The notes under the pieces were generated by a model. It did not search any database, was not told the DNA's origin, and saw only the letters and a list, made by a program, of their open reading frames with translations. Shown here piece after piece: positions 7,984 to 54,554 of a stretch of DNA of 64,000 nucleotides; position 1 is the first letter of the stretch, and every line of letters begins with the position of its first letter. The translations under genes and the position numbers were made by a program. Source of the DNA: Pseudonocardia acidicola (GTDB taxonomy: Bacteria > Actinomycetota > Actinomycetes > Mycobacteriales > Pseudonocardiaceae); assembly GCF_012911935.1 (NCBI RefSeq), contig NZ_JAAXLA010000010.1:1-64000 (forward strand), in the 5' to 3' direction.

Positions 7984-9471
7984 GTGCTGTTGTCGATCGA
8001 GTCCGACCCTGTCGCGCACGCTCGTGTGCTGTCCGACCTCTTCGACGCGGTGATGGGCGGCGAGGAGGTCCGTCAGGCACCCCGGCCGATCGTCTCGGAA
8101 TCCTGGCAGCGCAGCCTGGCCGCGCAGATCGACCCGGAGAACCGCACCCCGCCCGTCGTCTACCGGCCGGACGACCTGCCCGGCATCCGGGAGTCGCACC
8201 CGCTCAACGCGGTCATGCCGCTGCTGCGTGACACGCTCGTGAGCATCGCCGACGCGGCCATGCACGTCATGCTGGTGACCGACGCCGAGGGGCACATCCT
8301 GTGGCGCGACGGCGCCACCCGGCTGCTCGTCGACGCCGACCGCGTCGGCCTGTTCCCCGGCACGCACTGGAGCGAGGACGCGATCGGCACCAATGCCATG
8401 GGCACCACGCTCGCCGTGGACGCTCCGGTGCAGATCCACTCCGCCGAGCACCTGGTCCGGGCCTACCACGCCTGGACGTGCGTGGCGGCCCCCGTGCACG
8501 ATCCCGACACCGGCGCGATCCTCGGCGCGATCGACATCAGCGGGCCGCTGCACACCGCGCACCCGGCACTGGTGCAGCTGGTCTCGGCCACCGCCCAGCT
8601 GGCGGAGAACCAGCTGCGGGTCCGGCTGGCCATCGCCGACGAGCGGCTGCGGGTGCGCAACATGCCGCACCTGGCCAGCCTGCGCGGCGCGGCCGGCGCG
8701 CTGGTCACCCCGACCGGGCGGATCCTCGCCGGCGAGCCCTACGGGTGGTGGCCGGAGCGGATCACGCTCGAGGAGGGCTCGGACCGGGTGATGCTCGCCA
8801 ACGGCCGGGAGATGCTGGTCGAGCCGCTCGCCGAGGGGTACCTGCTGCGCACACCGGGCCCGGGCTCGTCCTCGACGCCGGTCGAACGGCCGAGCACTGC
8901 GCTGTCGCTGCGGTTCATGGGCGACGGTGCGCCGAGCGTGCTGCTCAACGGCCGCCCGATCCCGCTGACGTTGCGCCCCGCGGAGATCCTCACCGCGCTC
9001 GCGCTGCATCCCGAGGGCCTGACCGCGGAGCAGCTCGCACTGCTGCTCTACGGCGACGACGGGAACCAGACCACGGTGCGCGGAGAGATCCACCGGCTGC
9101 GCGCGCTGATCGGGGCCGACGTGCTGCGGACCCGCCCGTACCGGCTCGCGGCCACTGTGGACAGCGATTTCGGGGCGGTCCGGCAGGCGCTGAAGGCCGG
9201 GCGGGCGGAGGCGGCGCTGCGGGCCTGCAGCGGGTCGCTGCTGCCACGCTCGGACGCGCCGGAGATCCGCGAGGTGCGCGACGAGATCGTGGCCGGGCTG
9301 CGCCGGGCGGTGCTCGACGCCGATGACCCGGTGCTGCTGCACACCTTCGCCGGACATCCGCTGGGGCTGACCGATCTGGAGGTACACGACCGGCTCGTCG
9401 AACTGCTGCCGGCCGGTGACCCGCGGCGGCCGGTCGTCGTCTCCCGCTGGGCCCGGCTGCTCGCCGAGTAG
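7984..9471 (+). CDS. GAF-domain transcriptional regulator (AcoR-like N-terminus)
   Basis: This 495-residue protein has an AcoR-type sensory N-terminus: SESWQRSLAAQIDPEN, then a GAF domain with LVTDAEGHILWRDG, GTNAMGTTLAVDAPVQIHSA and GAILGAIDISG. AcoR proteins proper carry a sigma-54 AAA+ domain; here it is absent. The C-terminus is instead a winged-helix/BTAD-like region (LRPAEILTALALHPEGLTAE, VRGEIHRLRALIGADVLRTR). Actinobacterial proteins of this layout often sit near aldehyde or alcohol dehydrogenase genes, which fits the adjacent fdhA remnant. The start is uncertain: GTG at 7984 lacks a clear ribosome-binding site and TTG at 7990 is possible. Confidence 0.75.
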   Translation: MLLSIESDPVAHARVLSDLFDAVMGGEEVRQAPRPIVSESWQRSLAAQIDPENRTPPVVYRPDDLPGIRESHPLNAVMPLLRDTLVSIADAAMHVMLVTDAEGHILWRDGATRLLVDADRVGLFPGTHWSEDAIGTNAMGTTLAVDAPVQIHSAEHLVRAYHAWTCVAAPVHDPDTGAILGAIDISGPLHTAHPALVQLVSATAQLAENQLRVRLAIADERLRVRNMPHLASLRGAAGALVTPTGRILAGEPYGWWPERITLEEGSDRVMLANGREMLVEPLAEGYLLRTPGPGSSSTPVERPSTALSLRFMGDGAPSVLLNGRPIPLTLRPAEILTALALHPEGLTAEQLALLLYGDDGNQTTVRGEIHRLRALIGADVLRTRPYRLAATVDSDFGAVRQALKAGRAEAALRACSGSLLPRSDAPEIREVRDEIVAGLRRAVLDADDPVLLHTFAGHPLGLTDLEVHDRLVELLPAGDPRRPVVVSRWARLLAE

Positions 9472-9508
9472 CGCATACGTGCCGTAAGCCTCAGTTGCGG
9501 CTCATCGG

Positions 9509-35587: not shown

Positions 35588-36655
35588 ATGTCAGCACCGA
35601 CTGCGCAGCCAGCCAGTACCCAGCAGGAAGAGCCGGTCATCCACATCTTGTGGATCAATGCCGGGCTGAGCTGCGACGGAGACTCCGTGGCCCTCACCGC
35701 GGCCACCCAACCGACCATCGAGGAGATCGCCCTCGGTGCGCTACCGGGCCTGCCGAAGATCGCGGTGCACTGGCCGCTGATCGACTTCGAGTGCGGGCCG
35801 GACAAGGGTGCCGACACCTTCATCGAGTGGTTCTTCAAAGCCGACCGCGGCGAACTCGAGCCGTTCGTGCTGGTCATCGAGGGGTCGATCGCGAACGAAG
35901 CGATCAAGCCCGAGGGCTACTGGACCGGCTTCGGCAACAACCCCGAGACCGGCCAGCCCATCACCGTCAGCGAGTGGCTGGACCGGCTGGCGCCGAAGGC
36001 GCTCGCCGTCCTCGCGGCCGGCACGTGCGCGACCTACGGCGGCATCCACGCGATGCAGGGCAACCCGACCGGAGCCATGGGCGTTCCCGACTACCTGGGC
36101 TGGAGCTGGAAGTCCAAGGCCGGCATCCCGATCGTGTGTGTGCCCGGTTGCCCGACCCATCCGGACAACCTGTCCGAAACCATCCTCTACCTGCTCTACC
36201 AGGCCGCCGGATCCGCGCCGATGATCCCGCTGGACGAGGCACTGCGCCCGAAGTGGCTGTTCGGCGCCACCGTGCACGAGGGCTGCGACCGCGGCGGCTA
36301 CTACGAGGAGGGGCAGTTCGCCACGGACTACGGCCAGCCCGAATGCCTGGTGAAGCTCGGCTGCTGGGGGCCGGTCGTCAAGTGCAACGTCCCCAAGCGG
36401 GGCTGGATCAACGGCGTGGGCGGCTGCCCGAACGTCGGCGGGATCTGCATCGGCTGCACAATGCCCGGTTTCCCGGACAAGTTCATGCCGTTCATGGACG
36501 CTCCGCCCGGGAGCTTGGTGTCGGGCACCGCGAGCAGCGCCTACGGCGGCATCATCCGCCGCCTGCGCCGCATCACCGAGACCAAGCTCGACCAAGAACC
36601 GAAGTGGCGGCGCAAGGGCCGCGAGCTCGCCACCGGATACGCGAAGTCCTGGTAA
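35588..36655 (+). CDS. hhyS: group 1h [NiFe]-hydrogenase small subunit
   Basis: This is the electron-transfer subunit of a high-affinity H2-oxidising hydrogenase (355 residues). Iron-sulfur ligands are visible: the N-terminal INAGLSCDGDS has Cys29, but Asp32 stands where the second Cys of the usual CxxC would be. This is the three-Cys/one-Asp proximal cluster known from the Ralstonia actinobacterial-type hydrogenase. Further ligands lie in AGTCATYGG, VPGCPTHPDN, HEGCDRGGYY, CLVKLGCWG and GGCPNVGGICIGC. There is no Tat signal and no C-terminal membrane anchor, so it is cytoplasmic or peripherally attached. The start is ATG at 35588 with GAGGGG upstream, first gene of the operon. Confidence 0.95.
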   Translation: MSAPTAQPASTQQEEPVIHILWINAGLSCDGDSVALTAATQPTIEEIALGALPGLPKIAVHWPLIDFECGPDKGADTFIEWFFKADRGELEPFVLVIEGSIANEAIKPEGYWTGFGNNPETGQPITVSEWLDRLAPKALAVLAAGTCATYGGIHAMQGNPTGAMGVPDYLGWSWKSKAGIPIVCVPGCPTHPDNLSETILYLLYQAAGSAPMIPLDEALRPKWLFGATVHEGCDRGGYYEEGQFATDYGQPECLVKLGCWGPVVKCNVPKRGWINGVGGCPNVGGICIGCTMPGFPDKFMPFMDAPPGSLVSGTASSAYGGIIRRLRRITETKLDQEPKWRRKGRELATGYAKSW

Positions 36656-36669
36656 GGAGCCCCCACGCC

Positions 36670-38478
36670 ATGACCACCACCCAGCCGAAGACCGCACCGA
36701 CGACCAAGGACGAGACCGGTCTCGTCGAGATGGCGTGGGACCCGATCACCCGGATCGTCGGTAGCCTCGGCATCTACGCAAAGATCGACTTCTCGAACAA
36801 GCGCGTGGCCGAGTGCCACAGCACGTCGTCGGTCTTCCGCGGTTACTCGATCTTCATGAAGGGCAAGGACCCGCGCGACGCGCACTTCATCACCAGCCGC
36901 ATCTGCGGGATCTGCGGGGACAACCACGCGACCTGCTCGGTCTACAACCAGAACATGGCCTACGGCGTCCGCCCGCCGCACCTCGGCGAGTGGATCATCA
37001 ACCTCGGTGAGGCCGCCGAGTACATGTTCGACCACAACATCTTCCAGGAGAACCTGGTCGGGGTGGACTACTGCGAGAAGATGATCTCGGAGACCAACCC
37101 CGGGGTGATGGAGCGGGCGAACTCCACCGAGGCGCCGCACGCCCGCGACCACGGCTACAAGACCGTCGGCGACATCATGCGGGCGCTCAACCCGTTCACC
37201 GGCGAGTTCTACCGGGAGGCGCTGCAGGTCAGCCGCTACACCCGCGAGATGTTCTGCCTGATGGAGGGCCGCCACGTGCACCCCTCCACGCTGTATCCGG
37301 GCGGTGTCGGGACGCACGCGACGATCCAGCTCTTCACCGACTACTACGCGCGGCTGATGCGCTACGTGGAATTCATGAAGCGCGTCGTCCCGATGCACGA
37401 CGACCTGTTCGACTTCATGTACGACGCGCTGCCCGGTTACGAGGAGGTCGGCCGCCGGCGGGTGCTGCTGGGCTGCTGGGGCGCGCTCAACGACCCGGCC
37501 TTCTGCGACTTCGACTACCGGCACATGACCGACTGGGGCCGGAAGATGTTCGTCTCCCCCGGCGTGGTGGTCGACGGCAAGCTGGTCACCAACGACCTCG
37601 TCCAGATCAACCTGGGCATCCGGATCCTGCTCGGCAGCTCGTACTACCGGGACTGGCAGGACCAGGAGACGTTCGTGACGCACGACCCGCTGGGCAACCC
37701 GGTGGACAAGCGGCACCCGTGGAACCAGCACACGATCCCGGCACCGCAGAAGCGCGACTTCGACGACAAGTACAGCTGGACGATGTCACCGCGCTGGTTC
37801 GACGGCACCGACCACCTGCCGCTCGACACCGGTGGCGGCCCGCTGGCCCGGCTCTGGGCCACGGCCCTGGGCGGCCTGGTCGACTGCGGGTACGTGAAGG
37901 CCACGGGCCACTCGGTGCAGATCAACCTGCCGAAGAGCGCGCTGCTGCCCGAGGTCAGCTTCGAGTGGAAGCCGCCGGCCGACAAGCAGGGACGCCCGCT
38001 GTCCAACGCGATCGAGCGCAACCGGGCCCGGACCTACTTCCAGGCCTACTCCGCGGCCGTCGCGCTGCACTTCATGGACTCCGCACTCGCCGAGGTCCGC
38101 GGCGGCAACACCAAGACCTGGGAGCGGTTCAGCGTCCCGGACGAGGCGATCAGCTGCGGGTTCACCGAGGCCGTGCGGGGTGTCCTGAGCCACCACATGG
38201 TCATCCGCGGCGGCAAGATCGCGAACTACCATCCGTACCCGCCGACGCCGTGGAACGGCAGCGTGCGCGACTCCTTCGGCACGCCCGGCCCGTACGAGGA
38301 CGCGGTGCAGAACACGCCGATCTTCGAGGAGAACAAGCCGGAGAACTTCAAGGGCATCGACATCATGCGTGCGGTCCGCAGCTTCGACCCGTGCCTGCCC
38401 TGTGGCGTGCACATGTACCTGGGCAACGGCAAACCGCTGCACAAGATGCACTCGCCCGGCTCGCTGAACATCATCTGA
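36670..38478 (+). CDS. hhyL: group 1h [NiFe]-hydrogenase large subunit
   Basis: This is the catalytic subunit (602 residues) that splits H2 at the Ni-Fe(CN)2CO site. The L1 motif RICGICGDNHATCS gives Cys79 and Cys82; the L2 motif DPCLPCGVH gives Cys575 and Cys578. Cleavage after His581 would release a 21-residue C-terminal peptide, the job of the endopeptidase encoded downstream. The N-terminus LVEMAWDPITRIVGSLGIY and EGRHVHPSTLYPGGVG are typical of group 1h (formerly group 5), enzymes that scavenge atmospheric H2 during starvation. It starts 14 bases after hhyS. Confidence 0.96.
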   Translation: MTTTQPKTAPTTKDETGLVEMAWDPITRIVGSLGIYAKIDFSNKRVAECHSTSSVFRGYSIFMKGKDPRDAHFITSRICGICGDNHATCSVYNQNMAYGVRPPHLGEWIINLGEAAEYMFDHNIFQENLVGVDYCEKMISETNPGVMERANSTEAPHARDHGYKTVGDIMRALNPFTGEFYREALQVSRYTREMFCLMEGRHVHPSTLYPGGVGTHATIQLFTDYYARLMRYVEFMKRVVPMHDDLFDFMYDALPGYEEVGRRRVLLGCWGALNDPAFCDFDYRHMTDWGRKMFVSPGVVVDGKLVTNDLVQINLGIRILLGSSYYRDWQDQETFVTHDPLGNPVDKRHPWNQHTIPAPQKRDFDDKYSWTMSPRWFDGTDHLPLDTGGGPLARLWATALGGLVDCGYVKATGHSVQINLPKSALLPEVSFEWKPPADKQGRPLSNAIERNRARTYFQAYSAAVALHFMDSALAEVRGGNTKTWERFSVPDEAISCGFTEAVRGVLSHHMVIRGGKIANYHPYPPTPWNGSVRDSFGTPGPYEDAVQNTPIFEENKPENFKGIDIMRAVRSFDPCLPCGVHMYLGNGKPLHKMHSPGSLNII

Positions 38479-42322: not shown

Positions 42323-42604
42323 ATGTGCCTGGGCATTCCCGGAGAAGTGATCGAGCTGATGGCCGAGCACGAGGACCTGGCCATGGTCAGCGTCGAGGGG
42401 GTCAGGCGGGCGGTGAACATCGGCCTGCTCCGCGAGGACGGCGTGCTCGATCTACAGCCCGGTGACTGGATCCTGATCCATGTCGGCTTCGCCCTCTCCA
42501 CGATCGACGAGGCCGAGGCCACGGCGTCGCTGGAGTGGCTGACCGGGGTCGGCGACGCCTACACCGACGAGCTGGAAGCGCTCGCCGCGTCCGACATCAC
42601 GTGA
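42323..42604 (+). CDS. hypC: hydrogenase maturation chaperone HypC
   Basis: HypC (93 residues) carries the Fe(CN)2CO precursor with HypD and delivers it to the large subunit. The essential N-terminal Cys is present (MCLGIPGEVIEL), followed by the OB-fold core (VNIGLLREDG, DWILIHVGFALSTIDEAEA). It starts eight bases after the microprotein gene and is followed by hypD. A second, divergent HypC-like gene lies in the minus-strand arm. Confidence 0.95.
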   Translation: MCLGIPGEVIELMAEHEDLAMVSVEGVRRAVNIGLLREDGVLDLQPGDWILIHVGFALSTIDEAEATASLEWLTGVGDAYTDELEALAASDIT

Positions 42605-42624
42605 GGCTGAGGAGCGGTTCTCCC

Positions 42625-43752
42625 ATGAAGTTCGTCGACGAGTTCCGTGACGCCACCACCGCCCGCGCGCTGGCCACCAGGATCGCCGCGCTGTGCGAAC
42701 CGGGCCGGCGCTACACGTTCATGGAGGTGTGCGGCGGGCACACCCACACGATCTACAAGCACGGGCTGGAGGACTACCTGCCCGAGACCGTCACTCTCGT
42801 GCACGGCCCCGGGTGCCCGGTGTGCGTGATCCCGATGGGCCGGGTCGACGACGCCATCGCACTCGCCGAACAGGACGACGTGATCATGGCGTCGTTCGGC
42901 GACATGATGCGGGTGCCCGGCGGGCGCGGGTCGTTCTTCGACTCCAAGGCCGCCGGCGCCGACATCCGGATGGTCTACTCCCCGCTGGACGCGCTGAAGA
43001 TCGCCCGGAAGAACCCGGACAAGCGCGTCATCTTCATGGCGATCGGCTTCGAGACCACCGCGCCGTCGACGGCGATGACGGTGCTGCGCGCGGCCGCCGA
43101 GAAGCTCGACAACTTCGCCGTCTTCTGCAACCACGTCACGATCATCCCGGCGATCAAGGCGATCCTCGACTCGCCCGACCTGCGGCTCGACGGCTTCATC
43201 GGTCCCGGCCACGTCTCCACGGTGATCGGCTGCCGGCCGTACGAGTTCATCGCACGTGATCACGGCAAACCGCTGGTGTGTTCCGGGTTCGAGCCGCTGG
43301 ACATCCTGCAGTCGGTCTACCGGTTGCTGTTGCAGTTGCAGGAGGGCCGCAGCGAGGTCGAGAACCAGTACGCGCGGGTGGTGCCCTGGAACGGCAACCC
43401 GAAGGCGCTGCAGGTGATCGGCGAGGTGATGGAGCTGCGGCCGCACTTCGAATGGCGTGGGCTCGGGTTCATCTCGCACTCCGCGCTACGGATCCGCGAG
43501 TCCTACGCCGCGTTCGATGCGGAGCGCATCTACGGCGTGCCCGGCGTCCGGGTGGCCGACCCGAAGGCGTGCCAGTGCGGCGAGGTGCTCAAGGGCGTGC
43601 TCAAACCGTGGGAGTGCAAGGTCTTCGGCACCGCGTGCACCCCGGAGACCCCGATCGGGACGTGCATGGTGTCCAGCGAGGGCGCGTGCGCGGCGTACTA
43701 CAACTTCGGCCGGTTCAGCCGGGACCGCGTCAAGGAGGCGACGCGGTCATGA
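42625..43752 (+). CDS. hypD: hydrogenase maturation protein HypD
   Basis: HypD (375 residues) is the [4Fe-4S] scaffold on which cyanide and CO are attached to iron. Key motifs are visible: MEVCGGHTHTIYKHG, HGPGCPVCVIP, GFETTAPS, the GPGHVSTVIG block, and the C-terminal cluster ligands in PKACQCGEVLKGVLKPWECK and FGTACTPETPIGTC. The start is ATG at 42625 with GAGGAG upstream. It overlaps hypE by four bases. Confidence 0.96.
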   Translation: MKFVDEFRDATTARALATRIAALCEPGRRYTFMEVCGGHTHTIYKHGLEDYLPETVTLVHGPGCPVCVIPMGRVDDAIALAEQDDVIMASFGDMMRVPGGRGSFFDSKAAGADIRMVYSPLDALKIARKNPDKRVIFMAIGFETTAPSTAMTVLRAAAEKLDNFAVFCNHVTIIPAIKAILDSPDLRLDGFIGPGHVSTVIGCRPYEFIARDHGKPLVCSGFEPLDILQSVYRLLLQLQEGRSEVENQYARVVPWNGNPKALQVIGEVMELRPHFEWRGLGFISHSALRIRESYAAFDAERIYGVPGVRVADPKACQCGEVLKGVLKPWECKVFGTACTPETPIGTCMVSSEGACAAYYNFGRFSRDRVKEATRS

Positions 43753-44909
43753 CCACACACGACCTCGGCCCGAGCATCCCGGCGCGGGCGAACTGGGCCG
43801 AGGAGGCGGTGGCCGCGCACGCCGGCGCCGAGCACCTCACCCGCGAGGAACAGGTCCTCGAACGGATCGCGAGGGCCCGCGCTCGCAAGGCGAAGATCAA
43901 GGAGCAGCGGATCACGCTGTCCCACGGCGCCGGCGGCAAGGCCACGCACACCCTGATCGAGGCGGTCTTCCTGGAGGCGTTCCGCAATCCGGTGCTCGAG
44001 CGGCTGGAGGACGGGGCCTGCCTCGCCACCGATGCGGGCCGGTTCGCGTTCACCACCGATTCCTTCGTCGTCTCGCCGCTGTTCTTCCCGGGCGGGGACA
44101 TCGGCGACCTCGCCGTCAACGGCACCGTCAACGACCTCGCGATGTGCGGCGCCCGCCCGCTGCACCTGTCCGCAGGGTTCATCCTCGAGGAGGGTTTCCC
44201 GGTCGCCGACCTGCAGCGGATCGTCGCCTCGATGGCCGCCGCGGCGCAGGCCGCGGGCGTGCAGATCGTCACCGGTGACACCAAGGTCGTGCAGCGCGGC
44301 AAGGCCGACGGCTGCTACATCACCACCGCCGGCGTGGGGCTGCTCGACCGGCCGCTGACGCTGTCCGCCGCCGCAGCCCGGCCCGGTGACGTCGTGCTCG
44401 TCTCCGGCCCGATCGGCGACCACGGGATCACCGTGATGCTGGCCCGCGGCGAGCTCGACATCGAAGCGGACATCGAGTCCGACACCGCGCCGCTGCACGA
44501 GATCACCGCGGGTCTGCTCGACGCGGTGGGCGACGGGGTGCGGCTGCTGCGTGACGCCACCCGCGGCGGGGTGGCCACGATCTGCAACGAGGTGGCCGTC
44601 TCCTCCCAGGTCGCGGTGGTGCTCGACGAGAACGCCGTACCGGTGCGGCCGGTGGTCAACGGGGCGTCGGAGCTGCTGGGCATCGACCCGCTCTACGTCG
44701 CCTGCGAGGGCCGGCTCGTCGCGGTCGTCGCACCCGATCGGGCCGACGCGGCGCTGGCCGCGCTGCACGCGCACCCGCTCGGCGAGGGCGCCGCGGTGAT
44801 CGGCACGGTGAAGGACGACCCACCCGGGCTGGTGCTGCTGCGGACCGGGTTCGGCGGCACCCGGATCGTGGACCTGCTGGTGGGTGACCCCTTGCCCCGG
44901 ATCTGCTGA
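43749..44909 (+). CDS. hypE: hydrogenase maturation protein HypE
   Basis: HypE (386 residues, PurM fold) dehydrates the thiocarbamate on its C-terminal Cys to thiocyanate, the cyanide donor. The C-terminus PLPRIC carries the essential Cys, and LSHGAGGKATHTLIEAVF and GDIGDLAVNGTVNDLAMCGA mark the fold. There is an N-terminal extension of about 55 residues before the core, longer than usual; ATG at 43749 overlaps the hypD stop, but a shorter internal start cannot be excluded. Confidence 0.95.
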   Translation: MTTHDLGPSIPARANWAEEAVAAHAGAEHLTREEQVLERIARARARKAKIKEQRITLSHGAGGKATHTLIEAVFLEAFRNPVLERLEDGACLATDAGRFAFTTDSFVVSPLFFPGGDIGDLAVNGTVNDLAMCGARPLHLSAGFILEEGFPVADLQRIVASMAAAAQAAGVQIVTGDTKVVQRGKADGCYITTAGVGLLDRPLTLSAAAARPGDVVLVSGPIGDHGITVMLARGELDIEADIESDTAPLHEITAGLLDAVGDGVRLLRDATRGGVATICNEVAVSSQVAVVLDENAVPVRPVVNGASELLGIDPLYVACEGRLVAVVAPDRADAALAALHAHPLGEGAAVIGTVKDDPPGLVLLRTGFGGTRIVDLLVGDPLPRIC

Positions 44910-45283
44910 TGCACGAGCTGTCGATCACCCAGAGCGTCGTCGCCGCGGTCACGCAGCGGATGCGCGACGCCCCGGTGCGCCGGATCCGGCTGGAGATCGG
45001 CCGGCTCTCCGGCATCGTGCCGGGCTCGGTGCGGTTCTGCTTCGAGTTGGTCGCGGCCGGGACCACCTGCGAGGGCGCCGAACTGGAGATCGACGAACCG
45101 GCGGGCCGGGCGCACTGCCGGACGTGCGGCGCCGATTTCGACACCGCCGAGGTGCTGGCGCTGTGCGACTGCGGCAGCGCCGACGTGGAGGTACTGGGCG
45201 GCACCGAGTTGCGGATCCGAGAGGTGGAGGTGGGCTCATGTGCGCGACCTGCGGATGCTCCGGCGGGCCCGGCGTCCGGGTGA
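44909..45283 (+). CDS. hypA: hydrogenase nickel chaperone HypA
   Basis: HypA (124 residues) delivers nickel to the large subunit. The nickel-binding N-terminus MHELSIT with His2 is intact. The zinc loop has CRTC followed by CDCG: the second half is C-x-C instead of the usual C-x-x-C, one residue short. The ATG overlaps the hypE stop (TGATG). The 3' end overlaps hypB by 46 bases. Confidence 0.93.
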   Translation: MHELSITQSVVAAVTQRMRDAPVRRIRLEIGRLSGIVPGSVRFCFELVAAGTTCEGAELEIDEPAGRAHCRTCGADFDTAEVLALCDCGSADVEVLGGTELRIREVEVGSCARPADAPAGPASG

Positions 45284-45984
45284 TCGACCCCGGTCGCCCG
45301 CAGCGGCACGACCACCCGCACGACCATGACCACGACCACTCGCACACCGTCGCGCTCGAGGTCGACCTGCTGGCCAAGAACGACGATCTCGCCGGCCGCA
45401 ACCGCATCTGGCTCGCCGAACGCGGCATCGCCGCGGTCAACCTGATGAGCTCCCCCGGCGCCGGGAAGACCACGTTGCTCGAGCGCACCATCCGCGACCT
45501 CGGCACCGACGTGCCGTGCGCGGTGCTGGAGGGCGACCAGGAGACGCTGCTCGACGCCGAGCGGGTCGGCTCGGCGGGGGCCCGCGTCATCCAGATCAAC
45601 ACCGGTGCGGGCTGCCACCTCGACGCCGGCATGGTCGCCGACGGGCTGCGCATGCTCGCCCCCGAGCCGGGTTGCCTGCTGTTCGTGGAGAACGTGGGCA
45701 ACCTGGTCTGCCCGGCGCTGTTCGACCTGGGCGAGGCGGCCCGCGTGGTGATCATGTCGGTGACCGAGGGCGCGGACAAGCCGCTGAAGTACCCGCACAT
45801 GTTCCGCACCGCCGACCTGATGCTGCTCAACAAGATCGACCTGCTGCCCTACGTCGACGTCGACGTGGACCGCTGCGTCGAGTACGCGCGCCGGGCGAAA
45901 CCCGGGGTCGAGGTGCTCGAGGTCTCCGCGACCCGCGGCGACGGCCTGGACGCCTGGTACACCTGGCTGCGTCACCGTCGCTGA
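45238..45984 (+). CDS. hypB: hydrogenase nickel-insertion GTPase HypB
   Basis: HypB (248 residues) is the GTPase that works with HypA to load nickel. The N-terminus MCATCGCSGG has three Cys (2, 5, 7) forming a high-affinity metal site, followed by a His-rich tract with His at nearly every second residue between 24 and 36, which may store nickel. The G domain has SSPGAGKTTL, the switch region EGDQETLLDAERV, and NKIDLLPY. The start is ATG at 45238, inside hypA; it ends the plus-strand maturation arm. Confidence 0.95.
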   Translation: MCATCGCSGGPGVRVIDPGRPQRHDHPHDHDHDHSHTVALEVDLLAKNDDLAGRNRIWLAERGIAAVNLMSSPGAGKTTLLERTIRDLGTDVPCAVLEGDQETLLDAERVGSAGARVIQINTGAGCHLDAGMVADGLRMLAPEPGCLLFVENVGNLVCPALFDLGEAARVVIMSVTEGADKPLKYPHMFRTADLMLLNKIDLLPYVDVDVDRCVEYARRAKPGVEVLEVSATRGDGLDAWYTWLRHRR

Positions 45985-48660: not shown

Positions 48661-49299
48661 CCGCGGCTCCGCAGGCGGTCCGTCATCGTCAATCCTTGGT
48701 AAAGGGAGATTCAAACACGCCTCTGGCTCATCAGGAAGATGTCCGATTCGGCGGCCATGCTCCCGCCCGCTCCGTCCGGCGACCGAGGAGTTCATTGGGA
48801 GAAATGTCCCATATCGTCCGAGCGGTTCCCGCACAAGCCCTACGGACAATCGGGACCAGGGGGCGTTGATGAGACATAGCGGACCACATGACCCGTCCGA
48901 GATGCCACACTCGGCGGCACCGTGAGTACTGGTCGAGCCACCCCTACCTCGACAAAGTCTCCGTAAAGTAGATACAAAGATTTGCAATATCGGACGTCTT
49001 GGACAAGACTGGAGCAGCCCGGCGAAACGCCGCGAAAGGGTTGCCTCGAAGCTCGATATCGCCCCTGGTGGCCGCGACGTTAGCCCCTATCACCCCTATG
49101 ATTTGAATTATCGGGATTTCCCCGAAATCCCCTAGCGGAACGGGGGCCCGGATCCGCCAACACGGCGGCGGCGGACTGTGCATGATCCCCGATTCCCGTG
49201 GCCCGCTCCGGCCATAACGTTCCGCCTCGAACACCGGCCCACCTCGGGCACCTCGACTGCCGGCCTCACCGGTCGGCCCCCCATACACGGGAGATCACG
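48661..49299. other. 640-base intergenic region, less GC-rich than its surroundings
   Basis: No gene with convincing codon use was found on either strand. The stretch 48690-49110 is visibly richer in A and T than the rest of the window (for example, around 48960-49000). Only very short frames exist; one of 20 codons after GGGAGA near 48804 is not convincing. A TATGAT box at 49097-49102 and the palindrome at 49113-49131 lie in its right part and probably belong to the IniB-like gene. Confidence 0.5.
49113..49131. promoter_or_regulatory. palindrome upstream of the IniB-like gene
   Basis: GGGATTTC (49113-49120), CCC, GAAATCCC (49124-49131) is a perfect 8-3-8 inverted repeat, about 170 bases before the start codon. 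It could be an operator or a small leader hairpin. The AT-rich setting suggests promoter DNA. Confidence 0.4.
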
Positions 49300-50229
49300 A
49301 TGAGCGCCTCCGTCTCGCTGCTGGACTGGCTGATGAACCTGCTCAAGGACCCGGCCGCCAAGGCCGCCTTCACCCAGGACCCGCAGGGCTACCTGCAGAG
49401 CTGCGGACTCGAGCACCTGTCCGCCGAGGACGTGCACGACGCGATCGTGCTGGCCGGCGACCACCAGTCCGCCGACTTCAGCCGGCACTACGACCACACC
49501 GCGCCCACGCACCTGGCCCCGCCGCCGCCGGTCCACCCGGCCCCCGGTGAGGACGCCCACGAGGCCGCCGTGCGGTACCTGAACACCTACATCACCAACA
49601 ACTACATCGACCAGCACGACACGATCGTCGACAACTCGGTCAACCAGCAGATCGACAACCGTGGCGGGCACTTCGACCAGACCATCGACAACCACCCCGT
49701 CGTCGCCTCCGGCGCCGGTGCCGTGGCCGCCGGCGGCGACATCGACCACAGCACCGTCACCACCGGCCACGACAACGTCGTCGGCAACGACAACAACGTG
49801 GTGCACGGCGACCACGACACCACCGCCTTCGGCAGCGGCTCCGCGGCGAACCTGTCCAACGTCAACGTCGACCACGGCGGCGCCGTGGCGGTCGGCGGCA
49901 ACGCCGCCGGCAACAGCCAGGACAGCCACAACGAGCTGAACAACTTCGGCAAGGGCTCGATCAACACCGCCGACCACGGCAGCACCGCGTCCCAGGCGGT
50001 CAGCGCCACCCACACCGACAGCCACAACGACTCCAGCACCCACGTGGACAACCACAGCACCACGGACAACCACAGCGTCGTCGACACGAACTCGCACAAC
50101 GACACCGACACGACGACCACGCTGGACTCGCACAACGACACCCACACCGAGCTGGCCTCGCACAACACCAGCAGCGTCGACTCGCACGACACCAGCCACG
50201 TGCTCGCCGACAACCACTTCCACGCCTGA
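49300..50229 (+). CDS. IniB-N-terminal-domain protein with His/Asp/Asn-rich tail
   Basis: Residues 1-90 of this 309-residue protein resemble the IniB N-terminal domain (SLLDWLMNLLKDPAAKAAF, GYLQSCGLEHLSAEDVHDAI). The rest is low complexity: NNYIDQHDTIVDNSVNQQID, a Gly/Ala stretch, then about 165 residues of repeated SHND, DNHS, THTD-like units with some 20 His, many Asp/Asn/Thr and almost no Lys. Mycobacterial IniB belongs to the cell-envelope-stress ini operon, but no iniA/iniC dynamin genes are here. It sits between the two hydrogenase arms. Metal binding by the tail is possible but unproven. The start is ATG at 49300 with GGGAG upstream. Confidence 0.75.
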   Translation: MSASVSLLDWLMNLLKDPAAKAAFTQDPQGYLQSCGLEHLSAEDVHDAIVLAGDHQSADFSRHYDHTAPTHLAPPPPVHPAPGEDAHEAAVRYLNTYITNNYIDQHDTIVDNSVNQQIDNRGGHFDQTIDNHPVVASGAGAVAAGGDIDHSTVTTGHDNVVGNDNNVVHGDHDTTAFGSGSAANLSNVNVDHGGAVAVGGNAAGNSQDSHNELNNFGKGSINTADHGSTASQAVSATHTDSHNDSSTHVDNHSTTDNHSVVDTNSHNDTDTTTTLDSHNDTHTELASHNTSSVDSHDTSHVLADNHFHA

Positions 50230-50317: not shown

Positions 50318-52747
50318 TCACCCCGTGCCCGTGATCGCACCTGCGACGGCGACCTGCCCCAGGCTGATGCCCCCGTCGTTGCACGGCACCCGGGAATGGG
50401 CCAGCACCCGCAGCCCGGCGCCCTCCAGGCCGGCGGTGACCCGTTCCAGCAGCAACAGGTTCTGGAAGACCCCGCCGGACAACGCCACCGTGTCGTGCCC
50501 GAGGTCGGCGCACGCGTCGGCGGCGGCGGCCACCAGGACTGCGGCGAGTCCGTTGTGGAAACGGGCCGAGATCACACGTATGTCTACTGTGGATACCAGG
50601 TCGGCGACGACGCCGCGGACGAGGTCGCTGCCCCGGATCAGCTCTCCGTCCCGGCCCGCCGGGTAGCCCCCGCACACACTCGCGTCGGCGGCCTGCTCCA
50701 GCTCGATCGCCGCCTGCCCCTCGTAGTTGACCCGGTCGCGCACCCCGATGAGCGCGGCGACCGCGTCGAACAGCCGGCCCGCGCTCGTGGTGATCGGGAC
50801 GCCGACCCCGGACGAGAGCAGCCGCTGCACCGCCCCCCACTGCGCGCTGTTGCGCCGGGCCACATCGAGACCGGAGGCGTCGACCCCGGCCGCGCGCAGC
50901 CACGACACCGCCGTCCGCCACGGCTGCCGGATCGCCGTCGTCCCACCGGGCAGCGCGACCGGCTCCAGGTACGCGAGCCGCCGGAAGCCGGTCAGCGACA
51001 CCTCCATCACCTCGCCGCCCCACAGCACCCCGTCGGTGCCGTAGCCCAGCCCGTCACAGGCGATCCCGACCACCGGCCCCGTCTCACCGTGCTCGGCCAG
51101 GCACGCGGCGAGGTGCGCATGGTGGTGCTGCACCCCGACGAGCTCGACGCGCTCGTCCCGCTCGGCCACCCCGAGCGCGAACTTCGTGGACAGGTACTCC
51201 GGGTGCAGGTCGTGCGCGAGCAGCACCGGGTCGACGTCCAGCAGCCGGCCCAGGTGCGCGATGCCGTCGGTGTAGGCCCGCAGGGTCTGCGCGTTCTCCA
51301 GGTCGCCGATGTGATGCGAGCAGAACGCGTCGGCCCCGCGCAGCAGGCAGAACGTGTTCTTCAGCTCGGCGCCGCAGCCCAGCACGGGCTGTGACGCCGA
51401 CAGCATGAGCCGCAGCGGCTCCGGGGTGTAGCCGCGCGATCGCCGGATCGGGTACGTCCGCCCACGCACCACCCGCAGCACCGAGTCGTCGGCGCGGGTG
51501 CGGATCGGCCGGTCGTGGGTGAGGTAGGCGTCGGCGATCCCGGCGAGCCGGACGGCGGCGTCGTCGTCGAGGTGGGCAATCGGCTCGTCGGAGACGTTCC
51601 CGCTGGTCAGCACGATGGGCGCGCGCAGGTCGTCGAGCAGCAGATGGTGTATCGGGGTGTAGGGCAGCAGCAGCCCGAGGTGCGCGTTGCCCGGCGCCAC
51701 CGACGGCGCGACCCCGTCCACCGGGCGCCGGCGCAGCAGCACGATCGGCGCCCGCCGCGCCGTCAGCTCGGCCTCCTCGACCGGGCCGGTCACGCACAAC
51801 GCGCGCACCGCCGCCAGATCCGGTGCGAGGACGGCGAACGGTTTGTCCTCGCGGTGCTTGCGCGCCCGCAACGCCGCGACGGCCGTCTCGTCGGTGGCCA
51901 GTACGGCCAGGTGGTAGCCACCCAGTCCCTTGATCGCGACGACCGCCCCGGCCCGCAACGCCGCCGCGGCCGCCGTGATCGGGTCCGGACCAGCCGCGGT
52001 GTCGATTACGCGGCCCGCCGCGGTGCCCACCTCGCGGCCCGCCGCGGTGCCCACCTCGCGGCCCGCCGCGGTGCCGACCTCGCGGCCCGCCGCGGTGCCA
52101 ACCTCGCGGCCCGCCGCGGTGAACCGCAGCGTCGGGCCGCAGTCCGGGCAGCACACCGGTTGCGCGTGGAACCGGCGGTCCGACGGGTCGTGGTACTCCG
52201 CCGCGCAGGCGGCGCACATCGGGAAGCCGGCCATCGTGGTGACCGCCCGGTCGTAGGGCACGTCGGTGACGATCGTGAACCGCGGACCGCAGTTCGTGCA
52301 GTTGACGAACGGGTGCCGGTAGCGGCGGTCGGCCGGGTCACGCAGCTCGGCCAGGCAGTCGGCGCACGTCGCGGTGTCCGGAGAGATCAGCGTCGCGCGC
52401 CGGCCGTTCGACGCGCTGGCCGCGATGGCGAACGTGCTGTCGCCACACACCGCGATCCCGGTCGCGCTCACCCCGGTCACCAGAGCCAGCGCCGGCGGCC
52501 GTTCGCGCAGTGCCACCAGCAGCGCGTCCAGCGTGGCGCCGCAGCCCTCGGCCTCGATGACCACACCCGACTCGTCGTTGCCCACGAAACCGGTCAGTCC
52601 CAGCTCGCGGGCCAGGGTGTGCACGAACGGCCGGAACCCGACGCCCTGCACGATCCCGCTCACCCGCACCCGCCACCGCTGCACCCCCAGCGGGCTCGTC
52701 GCGGTGTCCGGGCCGGCGGAATCGCGATGAGGCTGCCGAACGCTCAT
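50318..52747 (-). CDS. hypF: carbamoyltransferase HypF
   Basis: HypF (809 residues) makes thiocarbamate on HypE from carbamoyl phosphate and ATP, the source of the CN ligands. Domains in order are: acylphosphatase (VSGIVQGVGFRPFVHTLARE), two zinc fingers (CADCLAELRD, NCTNCGPRF, CAACAAEY, VCCPDCGPTL), a YrdC-like domain (AGAVVAIKGLGGYHLAVLAT) and a Kae1-like domain (HHHAHLAACLAEHG, VALSGGVFQN). Between zinc finger and YrdC a repeated TAAGREVG segment (residues about 209-246) is inserted. The start is ATG at 52747, overlapping the SIS gene by four bases. It is the last gene of the minus-strand arm. Confidence 0.95.
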   Translation of the reverse strand: MSVRQPHRDSAGPDTATSPLGVQRWRVRVSGIVQGVGFRPFVHTLARELGLTGFVGNDESGVVIEAEGCGATLDALLVALRERPPALALVTGVSATGIAVCGDSTFAIAASASNGRRATLISPDTATCADCLAELRDPADRRYRHPFVNCTNCGPRFTIVTDVPYDRAVTTMAGFPMCAACAAEYHDPSDRRFHAQPVCCPDCGPTLRFTAAGREVGTAAGREVGTAAGREVGTAAGREVGTAAGRVIDTAAGPDPITAAAAALRAGAVVAIKGLGGYHLAVLATDETAVAALRARKHREDKPFAVLAPDLAAVRALCVTGPVEEAELTARRAPIVLLRRRPVDGVAPSVAPGNAHLGLLLPYTPIHHLLLDDLRAPIVLTSGNVSDEPIAHLDDDAAVRLAGIADAYLTHDRPIRTRADDSVLRVVRGRTYPIRRSRGYTPEPLRLMLSASQPVLGCGAELKNTFCLLRGADAFCSHHIGDLENAQTLRAYTDGIAHLGRLLDVDPVLLAHDLHPEYLSTKFALGVAERDERVELVGVQHHHAHLAACLAEHGETGPVVGIACDGLGYGTDGVLWGGEVMEVSLTGFRRLAYLEPVALPGGTTAIRQPWRTAVSWLRAAGVDASGLDVARRNSAQWGAVQRLLSSGVGVPITTSAGRLFDAVAALIGVRDRVNYEGQAAIELEQAADASVCGGYPAGRDGELIRGSDLVRGVVADLVSTVDIRVISARFHNGLAAVLVAAAADACADLGHDTVALSGGVFQNLLLLERVTAGLEGAGLRVLAHSRVPCNDGGISLGQVAVAGAITGTG
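52010..52121. repeat. 24-base in-frame tandem repeat inside hypF
   Basis: About 4.7 copies of a 24-base unit beginning GCGGCCCGCCGCGGTGCC stand head to tail (52010, 52034, 52058, 52082, 52106). Copies differ by only one or two bases. On the coding strand each gives eight residues (TAAGREVG). A degenerate half-unit lies just to the left. Unit length is a multiple of three, so changes in copy number keep hypF in frame. Confidence 0.92.
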
Positions 52748-53397
52748 GGGCTGCCGAGCGCGCGCTGCACGAGCTCCCAGAGGACCTGGTAGACGGTCGT
52801 CTGCGCTTCCTGGATCCGGTGCACCGACACCGACGGCATGACGAACAGATGATCGATCTCGCCGCGCTCGGCGGCATCCGCCATCGCCCCGCCGGAGTAG
52901 CCGGCCAGCCCCACGGTCAGCATCCCGCGCTCGCGCGCCGTGGCCAGTCCGCGCAGCACGTTCGCCGATCCACCGCTGGTGGACAGCCCGAACGCGATGT
53001 CCGCCTGCCGACCGGCGGCGGCCAGCGGGCGGGCGAACACGACGTCGAAGCCGATGTCGTTGGCCAGCGCGGTGAGCGTCGCGACGTCGGACGGCAGGGC
53101 CATCGCGGGCAGCGGCCGCTGGCCCGGGCCGGGGTCGGCGTACAGCGCCGCGACGGCCATCGCATCCGTGCTCGACCCACCATTGCCGAACGCGTACAAC
53201 CGACCGCCACGGGTGAACCGTGCCGCCATCGCCGACGCGCACGCCGCGAGCGCGTCGGCCTCGGCGGCCAGCACCTCCTCGCGCAGCCGCCCGATCTCGG
53301 CGACCTTCTCCCGGGTGGAGCGGGCGACGTCGGCGAGCAGTTCGGCCCGGTCCGCCGAGCCCGCGTGCAGGAACGGGTAGAGCGATTCGGTGCTCAC
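52744..53397 (-). CDS. GmhA-like SIS-domain protein, hydrogenase-linked
   Basis: This 217-residue protein has a SIS fold like sedoheptulose-7-phosphate isomerase (GmhA): a helical N-terminus, the phosphosugar loop FGNGGSSTDA (residues 70-79), and GLSTSGGSANVLRGLATARE. Both loops keep the Ser residues that bind sugar phosphate. No other heptose genes are nearby; instead it is locked by four-base overlaps between hypF and the second hypC-like gene, as in other group 1h loci. Its part in hydrogenase biogenesis or regulation is unknown. The start is GTG at 53397. Confidence 0.85.
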   Translation of the reverse strand: MSTESLYPFLHAGSADRAELLADVARSTREKVAEIGRLREEVLAAEADALAACASAMAARFTRGGRLYAFGNGGSSTDAMAVAALYADPGPGQRPLPAMALPSDVATLTALANDIGFDVVFARPLAAAGRQADIAFGLSTSGGSANVLRGLATARERGMLTVGLAGYSGGAMADAAERGEIDHLFVMPSVSVHRIQEAQTTVYQVLWELVQRALGSP

Positions 53398-53624
53398 GAC
53401 TGCGGCGCCACCCTCCCGATCGCTTCCCCGGCGTGCACGAGCACCACGTCACCGACCCCCGCGTCGACCAGCGCGATGCTCACCTCCTCCTCCGTTCCCG
53501 CCCCGGCGCCGGTGTCGACGAGCGCGAGACCGTCGCCGAGCAACCGGGTCACCGTCACCGCGACGGCGGTGTCGGAGCAGGTGATGCAGGTCGGGCCGGG
53601 GCACTGCTCCGGCGGAGCGTTCAT
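53394..53624 (-). CDS. divergent HypC/HupF-like protein
   Basis: This 76-residue OB-fold protein (AVAVTVTRLLGDGLALVDTG, GVGDVVLVHAGEAIGRV) is HypC-like in size and fold, but the start reads MNAPPEQCPGPTCITCSD. The essential Cys2 of true HypC is missing, and three Cys (8, 13, 16) form a different, possibly metal-binding, N-terminal group. It overlaps both SIS genes by four bases. Since a normal HypC is encoded at 42323, this copy probably has another role, perhaps binding a SIS partner or another hydrogenase subunit. Confidence 0.8.
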   Translation of the reverse strand: MNAPPEQCPGPTCITCSDTAVAVTVTRLLGDGLALVDTGAGAGTEEEVSIALVDAGVGDVVLVHAGEAIGRVAPQS

Positions 53625-54190
53625 CCGAGCACCTCCGGCGCGTCGAGGAAGACGTGCACCAGTTCCCAGAGCACGTGGTAGGCCGTCACCTGGGCCTCCC
53701 GGACCACCCGCGGGTCGTCCGACGGGGTCACGATCACGTGGTCGAGGCCCGGCACCCGCGCGACCGCACCGCCGTCACCACCGAGAAGCGCGACGGTGAG
53801 CAACCCGCGCCGGGCCGCCGCCGCCATCGCCTCGACCAGCACCGGCGCGCCGCCGTCCGCGGAGAAGGCGAGCGCGATGTCCTCCGGCTCGCCGAACAGC
53901 TCGACGGCGGCCGCGGACCCACCGCCGGGAAGGGCCAGCGCCGGCAGCGCCCGCTTGCCCACGATCACCGGGTGCACGAACTCGACGACGACGTGCGCGA
54001 CGTCGGCCGCCGCGGGCCCGGTCCCCAAGGCCAGCAACCGGCCGCCCCGGTGAAACCGGCGCGCCATCGCATGGCAAGCCGCGGCGAGCGCGTCGGCGTC
54101 AGTGCCCAACGCGACGATCGGCGCGCTGCGTCGCGCGAACGCCGTCGCCACGTGTCCGGCCGTCAGTTCGGTCAAGTCGACGCTGGTCAT
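53621..54190 (-). CDS. degenerate SIS-domain protein, hydrogenase-linked
   Basis: This 189-residue paralogue of the neighbouring SIS protein has lost key loop residues: GNGGSS is replaced by GTGPAA (residues 56-61), and STSGGS by SADGGA. The fold signature (VVVEFVHPVIVGKRALPALA, AMAAAARRGLLTVALLGGDG, EAQVTAYHVLWELVHVFLD) is intact. It is probably catalytically inactive and may form a heteromer with the intact SIS protein or act as a sensor. ATG at 54190 lies inside the padR gene; the two overlap by 92 bases. Confidence 0.82.
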   Translation of the reverse strand: MTSVDLTELTAGHVATAFARRSAPIVALGTDADALAAACHAMARRFHRGGRLLALGTGPAAADVAHVVVEFVHPVIVGKRALPALALPGGGSAAAVELFGEPEDIALAFSADGGAPVLVEAMAAAARRGLLTVALLGGDGGAVARVPGLDHVIVTPSDDPRVVREAQVTAYHVLWELVHVFLDAPEVLG

Positions 54191-54554
54191 CGGCCACCCC
54201 CTCGTGTCCCAGCAGCCGGTCGGCCGCGACCACGCGGGCATAGCGCTCCAGGAAGACGTGCAGCACCTCGTGGATGTGCTCGAGGCCGTGGGCCTGCGCG
54301 TCCAGGCAGGCCAGCCCGTCCGGGGTCACGTGATACGTCCGCCGGGCCGGCCCCACGTCGGAGGTATGCCACTCCGACCGGACCAGTCCCTGCCGTTCCA
54401 GACCGCGCAGCGCGCGGTAGACGCCACCGGCGTCGCCGTCGCCGTCGTGCATCGGCCGCAACCGGGCCGCGAGTTCGTACCCGTGGTCCGCTTGCTCCCG
54501 AAGGAGCAGCAGCAGACATGGCTGCAGGAAATTCCTGGGCTCGAGTTCGGCCAT
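54099..54554 (-). CDS. PadR-family regulator of the hydrogenase accessory arm
   Basis: This 151-residue regulator has the PadR winged helix (NFLQPCLLLLLREQADHGYE, GVYRALRGLERQGLVRSEWH, RTYHVTPDGL) and a C-terminal dimer helix. The last 30 residues, rich in Arg and Asp, are encoded where the next gene overlaps and may be accessory. It heads the minus-strand arm and probably autoregulates through the palindrome at 54613-54626. ATG at 54554 matches the usual PadR start; no strong ribosome-binding site is visible. It may control both arms. Confidence 0.82.
   Translation of the reverse strand: MAELEPRNFLQPCLLLLLREQADHGYELAARLRPMHDGDGDAGGVYRALRGLERQGLVRSEWHTSDVGPARRTYHVTPDGLACLDAQAHGLEHIHEVLHVFLERYARVVAADRLLGHEGVADDQRRLDRTDGRTRGDGVRATQRADRRVGH

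Follow-up and report, generated by a model that had tools for sequence, protein, structure and literature searches.

GmhA-like SIS genes in one lineage of [NiFe]-hydrogenase hyp operons, and their candidate role as a maturation enzyme with a divided site

In one lineage of hyp operons, the operons of [NiFe]-hydrogenase maturation, genes for SIS proteins of the sugar-phosphate type belong to the conserved gene set. We arrived at this from a window of 64,000 nucleotides of Pseudonocardia acidicola (the whole stretch of DNA analysed: contig NZ_JAAXLA010000010.1 of assembly GCF_012911935.1, positions 1 to 64,000), in which a sequence-only reading had singled out a five-gene cassette on the minus strand, padR-SISa-HypC2-SISb-hypF. 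All five open reading frames (ORFs) are present with their overlaps, which measure 92 base pairs (bp) for padR/SISa and are 4-bp stop/start overlaps at each of the SISa/HypC2, HypC2/SISb and SISb/hypF junctions:

54099..54554, minus strand: PadR-family regulator, a local accessory (Pfam PadR, 58 bits)
53621..54190, minus strand: SISa, SIS_2 domain (PF13580, 43 bits, cut-off 27)
53394..53624, minus strand: HypC2, HupF/HypC family (HupF_HypC, PF01455, 38 bits, cut-off 28.5)
52744..53397, minus strand: SISb, SIS_2 domain with an LYPFL N-terminus (PF13580, 67 bits, cut-off 27)
50318..52747, minus strand: HypF carbamoyltransferase (TIGR00143, 725 bits, cut-off 466; five Pfam domains above cut-off)

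We observe a constant gene order, gene fusions, a partition of residues between the two SIS proteins and linkage to hyp operons, and we think it probable that hydrogenase maturation has a dedicated enzyme of the GmhA fold, encoded by the SIS genes, with a site split between SISa and SISb in the window's branch. The observation is larger than the sequence-only reading supposed: an overlooked sugar-phosphate-type enzyme beside the hyp genes points to an undescribed step in the making of [NiFe]-hydrogenases.

Linkage of the SIS genes to hyp operons

A profile built from SISa and single SIS proteins was run against named genomes and returned at least 574 relatives; the best 80 were kept, and neighbouring genes were not used for selection. 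In all 80 of these named loci (the best 80 of at least 574, a scope that holds for each count of named loci below), hypD is the next scored gene downstream of SIS on the same strand, with gaps of 0-649 bp; hypC is found in 79, hypE in 76 and hypF in 76. The loci include Paraburkholderia, Bradyrhizobium, Methylocystis, Nitrospira moscoviensis and Halomonas, together with contigs filed as Myxococcales, Pyrinomonadaceae and Schlesneria. Most of the operons encode a single SIS protein, which has the full set of GmhA metal ligands and the two phosphate loops. In a plasmid search, the SIS gene of Cupriavidus necator H16 (H16_RS31885) and those of Mesorhizobium, Bradyrhizobium, Afipia and Sphingopyxis were flanked by hypC and hypD, and that of Methylocystis by hypF and hypD. 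The assignment of a sugar-phosphate-type SIS module to [NiFe]-hydrogenase maturation operons, as the sequence-only reading had proposed, is therefore upheld. That reading had also named, as evidence that would count against it, a frequent occurrence of the SIS-HypC2-SIS trio in heptose-biosynthesis loci without hydrogenases; instead hypD adjoins SIS in 80/80 named loci, and hyp or hydrogenase genes accompany 45 of 46 two-SIS clusters within the fetched stretch (the exception being locus L043), so that the heptose-locus hypothesis is rejected.

Co-occurrence with group 1h hydrogenases had been expected as well. The best large-subunit reference was of group 2a in 26 named loci, 1h in 20, 2b in 7 and 1d in one, with none scored in 26 (the references presumably bear these group names); co-occurrence with group 1h is thus present, in 20/80, but a strict association with that group is rejected, as the other groups appear too.

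The two-SIS form was seen in Actinobacteria, Thermus and Sulfobacillus. When 200 genomes of the order were searched with SISa and 30 loci fetched with flanks (L033-L062), two SIS domains lay together in 27 (L033-L059), SISa before SISb in every one, and 26 of the 27, all but L043, had other hyp or hydrogenase genes within the 3-20 kilobases (kb) fetched. In these loci HypC2 lies between the SIS genes or is fused to SISa, and is absent from L040, L043 and L044; the other three loci (L060-L062) hold a single GmhA-like gene and have no hyp neighbours.

Across the phylum, 80 HypD-positive actinobacterial genomes were chosen from 203 found in a sample of 396, and hyp-SIS (E of 1e-55 or better, N-terminus covered) was called in 27 of these; in 23 it shares the contig of HypD, no more than about 16 kb away, and in four it is on other draft contigs; three unlinked weaker matches (G206, G385 and G436; 165-170 bits) were not counted. 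The terminal-oxidase marker COX1, called at E below 1e-50 in 43/80 genomes (47/80 match at 0.001), is present in 21 of the 27 SIS genomes and has no match in the other six. Four SIS-bearing actinobacteria of family f32 (L236, L237, L246 and L248, from G325, G272, G293 and G389) lack a COX1 match. A hypothesis that the SIS genes belong to aerobes only is not clean, given these 6/27 genomes and the anaerobically raised GmhA of A. ferrooxidans described below.

In a HypD tree of 91 representatives, all 59 SIS rows fall within one 64-row branch (support 98), and the HypX rows occur in two places outside it, interspersed with rows that have neither gene. Five rows nested within the SIS branch have no SIS (L186, L194, L196, L197 and L198); the large subunits are group 3d-like in L194 and L197, group 2a in L186, and give weak matches in L196 and L198.

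In the papers we cite, SIS appears as an unexplained neighbour of hydrogenase genes: among conserved clusters near hydrogenases, the SIS domain is number 37, with 68 genes (PMC12727194); gmhA (MSMEG_2706) of M. smegmatis is listed with the hydrogenase genes as up-regulated in stationary phase (PMC5445863); in A. ferrooxidans, GmhA is counted with the maturation proteins of the hup cluster and is raised in anaerobic growth (PMC7735108); and an industrial Saccharopolyspora strain carries, besides a hypD nonsense mutation, two frameshifts in gmhA (PMC3359211). The sequence-only reading held that SIS has no described role in hydrogenase maturation; in agreement with this, we found no such function in excerpts of the open-licence literature, and subscription papers could hold one.

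Partition of GmhA-type residues between SISa and SISb

In GmhA, zinc is bound by H64, E68, Q175 and H183 (B. pseudomallei numbering), all conserved and needed (PMC5705639), and in the gonococcal enzyme one monomer provides H61, E65 and H183 and the adjacent monomer Q175 (PMC5387315). Neither SIS protein of the window has all four ligands. SISa keeps His64, Glu68 and His183, has Arg in place of Gln175, carries the motif VEFVHPVIVGKRAL and has lost its phosphate-loop residues (GTGPA, SADG); SISb keeps the loops GNGGS and STSG with Gln175, and reads Ala, Leu, Gln and Gln at positions 64, 68, 175 and 183. The loops had been read correctly before (GTGPAA and SADGGA in SISa, GNGGSS and STSGGS in SISb), but the description of SISb as an intact GmhA-like protein was mistaken at the metal site, where Ala, Leu and Gln replace His64, Glu68 and His183.

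Every SIS domain of the fetched loci was then aligned to one profile, giving 46 two-SIS clusters (the Sulfobacillus locus L068, whose fused gene is frameshifted, was excluded). SISa precedes SISb in all 46. In SISa, H64 and E68 are present in 46/46 and H183 in 45/45 scorable clusters (a frameshift in L045 leaves that position unscorable), and GNGGS or STSG in 0/46. In SISb, Q175 is present in 46/46, both GNGGS and STSG in 45/46, and H64 and E68 in none. Every scorable pair thus jointly retains all the GmhA-type ligands, and neither partner has all ligands and loops. All four ligands, GNGGS and STSG occur together in 92/92 single SIS domains (TTSG once, in L061), of which 88 lie in hyp clusters and four (from L060-L062 and L074) are GmhA-like without hyp neighbours. 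Since the same gene order and the same split of residues recur in 46 clusters, the pattern is far beyond chance.

Given that GmhA zinc is held by a His-Glu-His set and the Gln of a neighbouring chain, the SISa-SISb pair reads as an obligate heteromer, putatively with a composite metal-binding and catalytic site. An enzyme-pseudoenzyme pair had been proposed for the cassette: its heteromeric part stands, in that the copies are complementary, and its one intact copy does not; each copy lacks what the other keeps, and therefore a composite heteromeric active site fits better. AlphaFold2 monomer models, built on alignments that include single-SIS relatives, give pLDDT (predicted local distance difference test) scores of 90.8 for SISa, with GmhA and DiaA as nearest folds, and 91.7 for SISb, with GmhA nearest and DiaA among its neighbours. 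As its model matches GmhA best, SISa is predicted to retain the fold despite its altered loops.

SISa and SISb share one stop-free ORF in 16/46 two-SIS clusters, as in Thermus thermophilus, where the fusion is annotated as a single SIS protein of 392 amino acids; in 17/46, HypC2 follows SISa in one stop-free ORF, and in a Mycobacterium intracellulare plasmid the fused SISa-HypC2 gene is annotated as HypC. Because both kinds of fusion occur, we would argue that SISa, HypC2 and SISb work in contact. HypC2 accompanies 37/46 two-SIS clusters, 0/86 single-SIS clusters and 0/16 HypX clusters. That of the window has no N-terminal Met-Cys2, which is essential in HypC (PMC12134894), and carries a C-x4-C-I-T-C-S-D motif that had gone unmentioned; its CxTCSD and VHAGEAI motifs recur, as C-x-T-C-[SG]-D and a VHA..AI-type end, in 18 aligned HypC2 proteins. 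None of the 18 has a HypC-type MC start before CxTC[SG]D (some rows of the alignment are trimmed at the start, and one begins MCLEH inside a SISa tail). HypC2 may be a docking or redox partner. In Thermus (L064:12617-12877) and Sulfobacillus (L068:10619-10846) a small glutaredoxin-like gene lies between SIS and hypF.

In a tree of 57 SIS domains, SISa, SISb and the single hyp-SIS each form one clade (Shimodaira-Hasegawa-like approximate likelihood-ratio support 99, 95 and 98), and the hyp-SIS clades together stand apart from four GmhA rows (support 99); SISa and SISb join with a support of 76 only, the method being quick and the outgroup small (those four rows). Three clades apart from the GmhA rows would fit a history in which a hyp-specific SIS was duplicated and the copies then underwent complementary losses, giving the pair of the window's branch. 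In L186 (7044-7718; family f8, G074), beside a group 2a-like hydrogenase, a decayed SISa is fused to an intact HypC2; that genome has no hyp-SIS match at hypD and no SISb, the metal motifs of its SISa are lost too and HypC2 is kept. This is a single case, but in the direction expected.

A candidate maturation enzyme and the alternatives

We propose that in the single-SIS branch of hyp operons one protein would carry the whole site, and that in the window's branch a gene duplication led to an active site shared out between the two copies, SISa giving three metal ligands (His, Glu, His) and SISb the fourth (Gln) with the phosphate-binding loops, so that the site would be complete only in the SISa-SISb heteromer. 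HypC2, beside SISa or fused to it, could tie the enzyme by docking to the HypC/HypD scaffold that builds Fe(CN)2CO; a phosphorylated sugar or carbonyl compound is a natural guess for the substrate. The most likely role would be that of a phosphosugar metalloenzyme dedicated to maturation and working at HypC-HypD; in the Proteobacteria examined it would be the product of a single gene, and in the window's branch, we infer, an obligate heteromer.

Several points weigh against this proposal. SISa retains the GNGG of the first loop, without the serine, in 13/46 clusters, and also has Gln at 175 in 12/46 (Thermus type and kin); position 183 of SISb is His in 30/46, Tyr in 15 and Gln in the window. 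The GmhA site lies between three chains (PMC5705639), and which chain donates the phosphate loops is not evident from the excerpted text: if it is the His-Glu-His chain, the split would not rebuild a phosphate-binding site. L043 is a two-SIS pair without a hyp gene in 20 kb (its SISb loops are degenerate, ANGVS and CTGG, and it is possibly a relic or a moved copy). HypC2 is missing from 9/46 two-SIS clusters, and in L197, from a genome that gave no hyp-SIS match, a HypC2 (9294-9473) stands between hypC and hypD, so that the trio is not indivisible. Two group 1h-like clusters with hyp sets (L185 and L188) come from genomes in which we found no hyp-SIS or full-length HypX; the SIS step is thus not universal. 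Biochemistry of hyp-SIS was not found in the open-licence literature.

Among the alternatives, a phosphosugar sensor, a possibility raised by the sequence-only reading, in which the SIS pair would bind a sugar phosphate and, in the manner of the SIS domains of regulators, gate maturation or the HypC/HypD scaffold by carbon status and without catalysis, seems to us unlikely though worth keeping in mind. Structure searches also return SIS regulators and DiaA, and the M. smegmatis gmhA rises with the hydrogenase genes in stationary phase (PMC5445863). However, a sensor would need the phosphate loops and not the His-Glu-His-Gln site, which is kept in all scored singles and partitioned intact in the pairs; PadR, a possible output, is matched in few loci (6/180); and carbon control of the M. 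smegmatis hydrogenase Huc acts at the level of expression, with GylR as the upstream sensor (PMC13098282). We give rather little credence to a metal chaperone, whose composite site would carry Fe(II) or another metal to HypC/HypD, with HypC2 (CxTCSD) serving as its acceptor or as a redox partner: singles and pairs conserve the ligand set, SIS sits between hypC and hypD, HypC2 keeps its CxTC motif and is fused to SISa in 17/46 clusters, and the iron source of the cofactor is under study (PMC10847431), but a chaperone gives no reason for phosphate loops kept in 45/46 SISb, and HypC2 occurs in 0/86 single-SIS operons. A structural scaffold, or an operon passenger with decayed activity, is very improbable: SISa loop residues are lost in every case and SIS decay is tolerated in L186, yet the losses are complementary rather than random and the ligands are invariant for each partner across phyla. 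That a true GmhA of heptose biosynthesis lies in hyp operons by chance is hardly credible, for although the genes are annotated as gmhA or phosphoheptose isomerase in excerpts of the M. smegmatis, A. ferrooxidans and S. erythraea papers and the single hyp-SIS has every GmhA ligand, hyp-SIS proteins score 54-155 bits on TIGR00441 against a cut-off of 209, adjoin hypD in all 80 named loci, bear LYPFL and VEFxHP motifs and form a clade apart from the GmhA rows.

Within our proposal, the reaction could concern the CO ligand. A review describes HypX as necessary for CO synthesis under oxic conditions and the CO source under anoxic conditions as open (PMC12134894); a Streptomyces paper notes that some high-affinity H2 oxidisers lack hypX (PMC4767420). 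Taken with L185 and L188, in whose genomes neither was found, this means that neither SIS nor HypX is strictly needed. A HypX call required a full-length match with E no higher than 1e-120 (with shorter ones counted, 60/80 genomes match at E 0.001). The 80 actinobacterial genomes comprise 27 with hyp-SIS, six with full-length HypX, one with both and 48 with neither; among the 43 that are COX1-positive, 21 have SIS and five HypX, without overlap, all five HypX genomes being of one genus. In 249 Proteobacteria, HypX occurs in 15 and hyp-SIS in three (one of them the centre genome), again without overlap, as chance would also give. Of 45 named SIS genomes, drawn from the best 80 of at least 574 loci, HypX is found in five and 40 are without it, against 12/76 HypD-positive Proteobacteria.

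At the level of the operon, 165 loci with usable HypD divide into 124 with SIS, 16 with HypX, 25 with neither and none with both, counts which are not frequencies, the loci having been chosen for SIS, HypX or HypD; L201, L243 and L249 were relabelled, their SIS or HypX lying slightly farther off than 12 kb, and the fragment L203, which has its SIS genes on another contig, was dropped. HypX was found in none of the fetched flanks of the 80 named SIS loci (up to 10 kb a side, both sides complete for 44). In two Bradyrhizobium SIS genomes HypX lies in a separate hypABFCDEX operon, plasmid pHG1 of C. necator carries one hyp operon of each type, SIS and HypX, and no hyp genes were found beside HypX in the short stretches fetched from three Methylocystis genomes and G282. 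The non-overlap is real in these loci, but since SIS-linked HypD form one clade it may be mere ancestry. Mutual exclusion as a proof of function was dropped, being weak at genome level.

It is a long shot that the [NiFe] cofactor receives its CO, or one-carbon, ligand from the hyp-SIS complex, independently of HypX. The complex would then form a sugar-phosphate enediol bound to the metal, as GmhA does, and split it at the two-His-one-Glu site, perhaps with O2, as in nickel acireductone dioxygenase, releasing CO next to HypC/HypD. If so, bacteria of several phyla would make hydrogenase CO from sugar phosphates.

Atmospheric hydrogen oxidation is described as a globally significant process (PMC10017518). 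With SIS fixed between hypC and hypD across several phyla, a step of cofactor assembly in this lineage, or an input to it, may have been missed, and the 40/45 SIS genomes without HypX are a further case beside the open anoxic CO source (PMC12134894). The divided site, if our proposal is true, would illustrate clearly how, in nature, an enzyme encoded by one gene turned into an obligate pair. Both claims, the maturation enzyme and the CO source, can be tested in one strain, because C. necator H16 has both operon types on pHG1.

Surrounding genes and comparison with known systems

The minus-strand cassette faces a plus-strand block of hydrogenase subunits (35588-38478) and hypC1-hypD-hypE-hypA-hypB (42323-45984):

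35588..36655, plus strand: hydrogenase small subunit, HhyS-like (named by sequence and synteny)
36670..38478, plus strand: group 1h-like hydrogenase large subunit, HhyL-like (RICGIC and DPCLPC motifs)
42323..42604, plus strand: HypC1, canonical HypC, start Met-Cys-Leu-Gly-Ile-Pro (PF01455, 79 bits)
42625..43752, plus strand: HypD, within the SIS-associated HypD branch (PF01924, tree)
43749..44909, plus strand: HypE, C-terminal PRIC
44909..45283, plus strand: HypA (named by sequence and synteny)
45238..45984, plus strand: HypB (named by sequence and synteny)

The large subunit we take to be of group 1h from its C-terminal features rather than from HydDB. Two proteins of the genome match the HypC family at E 0.001 or better, HypC1 (78 bits) and HypC2 (39 bits). 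A PadR match was found in 6/180 loci scanned, the window among them and all six being two-SIS loci, and PadR is therefore rejected as a core part of the cassette. Inside hypF, an in-frame tandem repeat (51986-52117, minus strand) encodes AAGREVGT in four exact copies and partial ones, between the zinc-finger and YrdC-like parts of HypF. The ORF adjoining the end of hypF (49198-50229, plus strand) has a long low-complexity tail rich in His, Asn, Asp, Ser and Thr.

Of the known systems, GmhA, the zinc-dependent sedoheptulose-7-phosphate isomerase, shares the fold (template-modelling scores of the AlphaFold2 models about 0.7-0.8 by query length), and the single hyp-SIS resembles it in its H/E/Q/H metal ligands and phosphate loops. 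Unlike GmhA, hyp-SIS proteins fall below the TIGR00441 cut-off of 209 (SISa 54, SISb 116 and three singles 148-155 bits; the E. coli lpcA control gives 280), have LYPFL and VEFxHP motifs absent from the E. coli GmhA row, adjoin hypD, and in the window are split over two proteins. DiaA, a SIS protein that works with DnaA, also has this fold and is a structural neighbour of both models; hyp-SIS differs from it in retaining the GmhA metal ligands as a complete set and in belonging to hyp operons.

HypX, the CO-forming protein of [NiFe]-cofactor assembly, is like SIS an extra enzyme of some hyp operons beyond hypA-F, but differs in its domains, a formyltransferase and an enoyl-CoA hydratase-like domain with chemistry from formyl-tetrahydrofolate (PMC12134894), in its position, after hypE (C. 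necator and two Bradyrhizobium) and not between hypC and hypD, and in its company, being found with other HypD branches. HypC2, finally, resembles the HypC/HybG/HupF chaperones in passing the PF01455 cut-off, and is set apart from them by the lack of Met-Cys2, by CxTC[SG]D, by 17 bits on the NCBIfam hypC model against a cut-off of 48, and by its fusion to SISa in 17/46 clusters.

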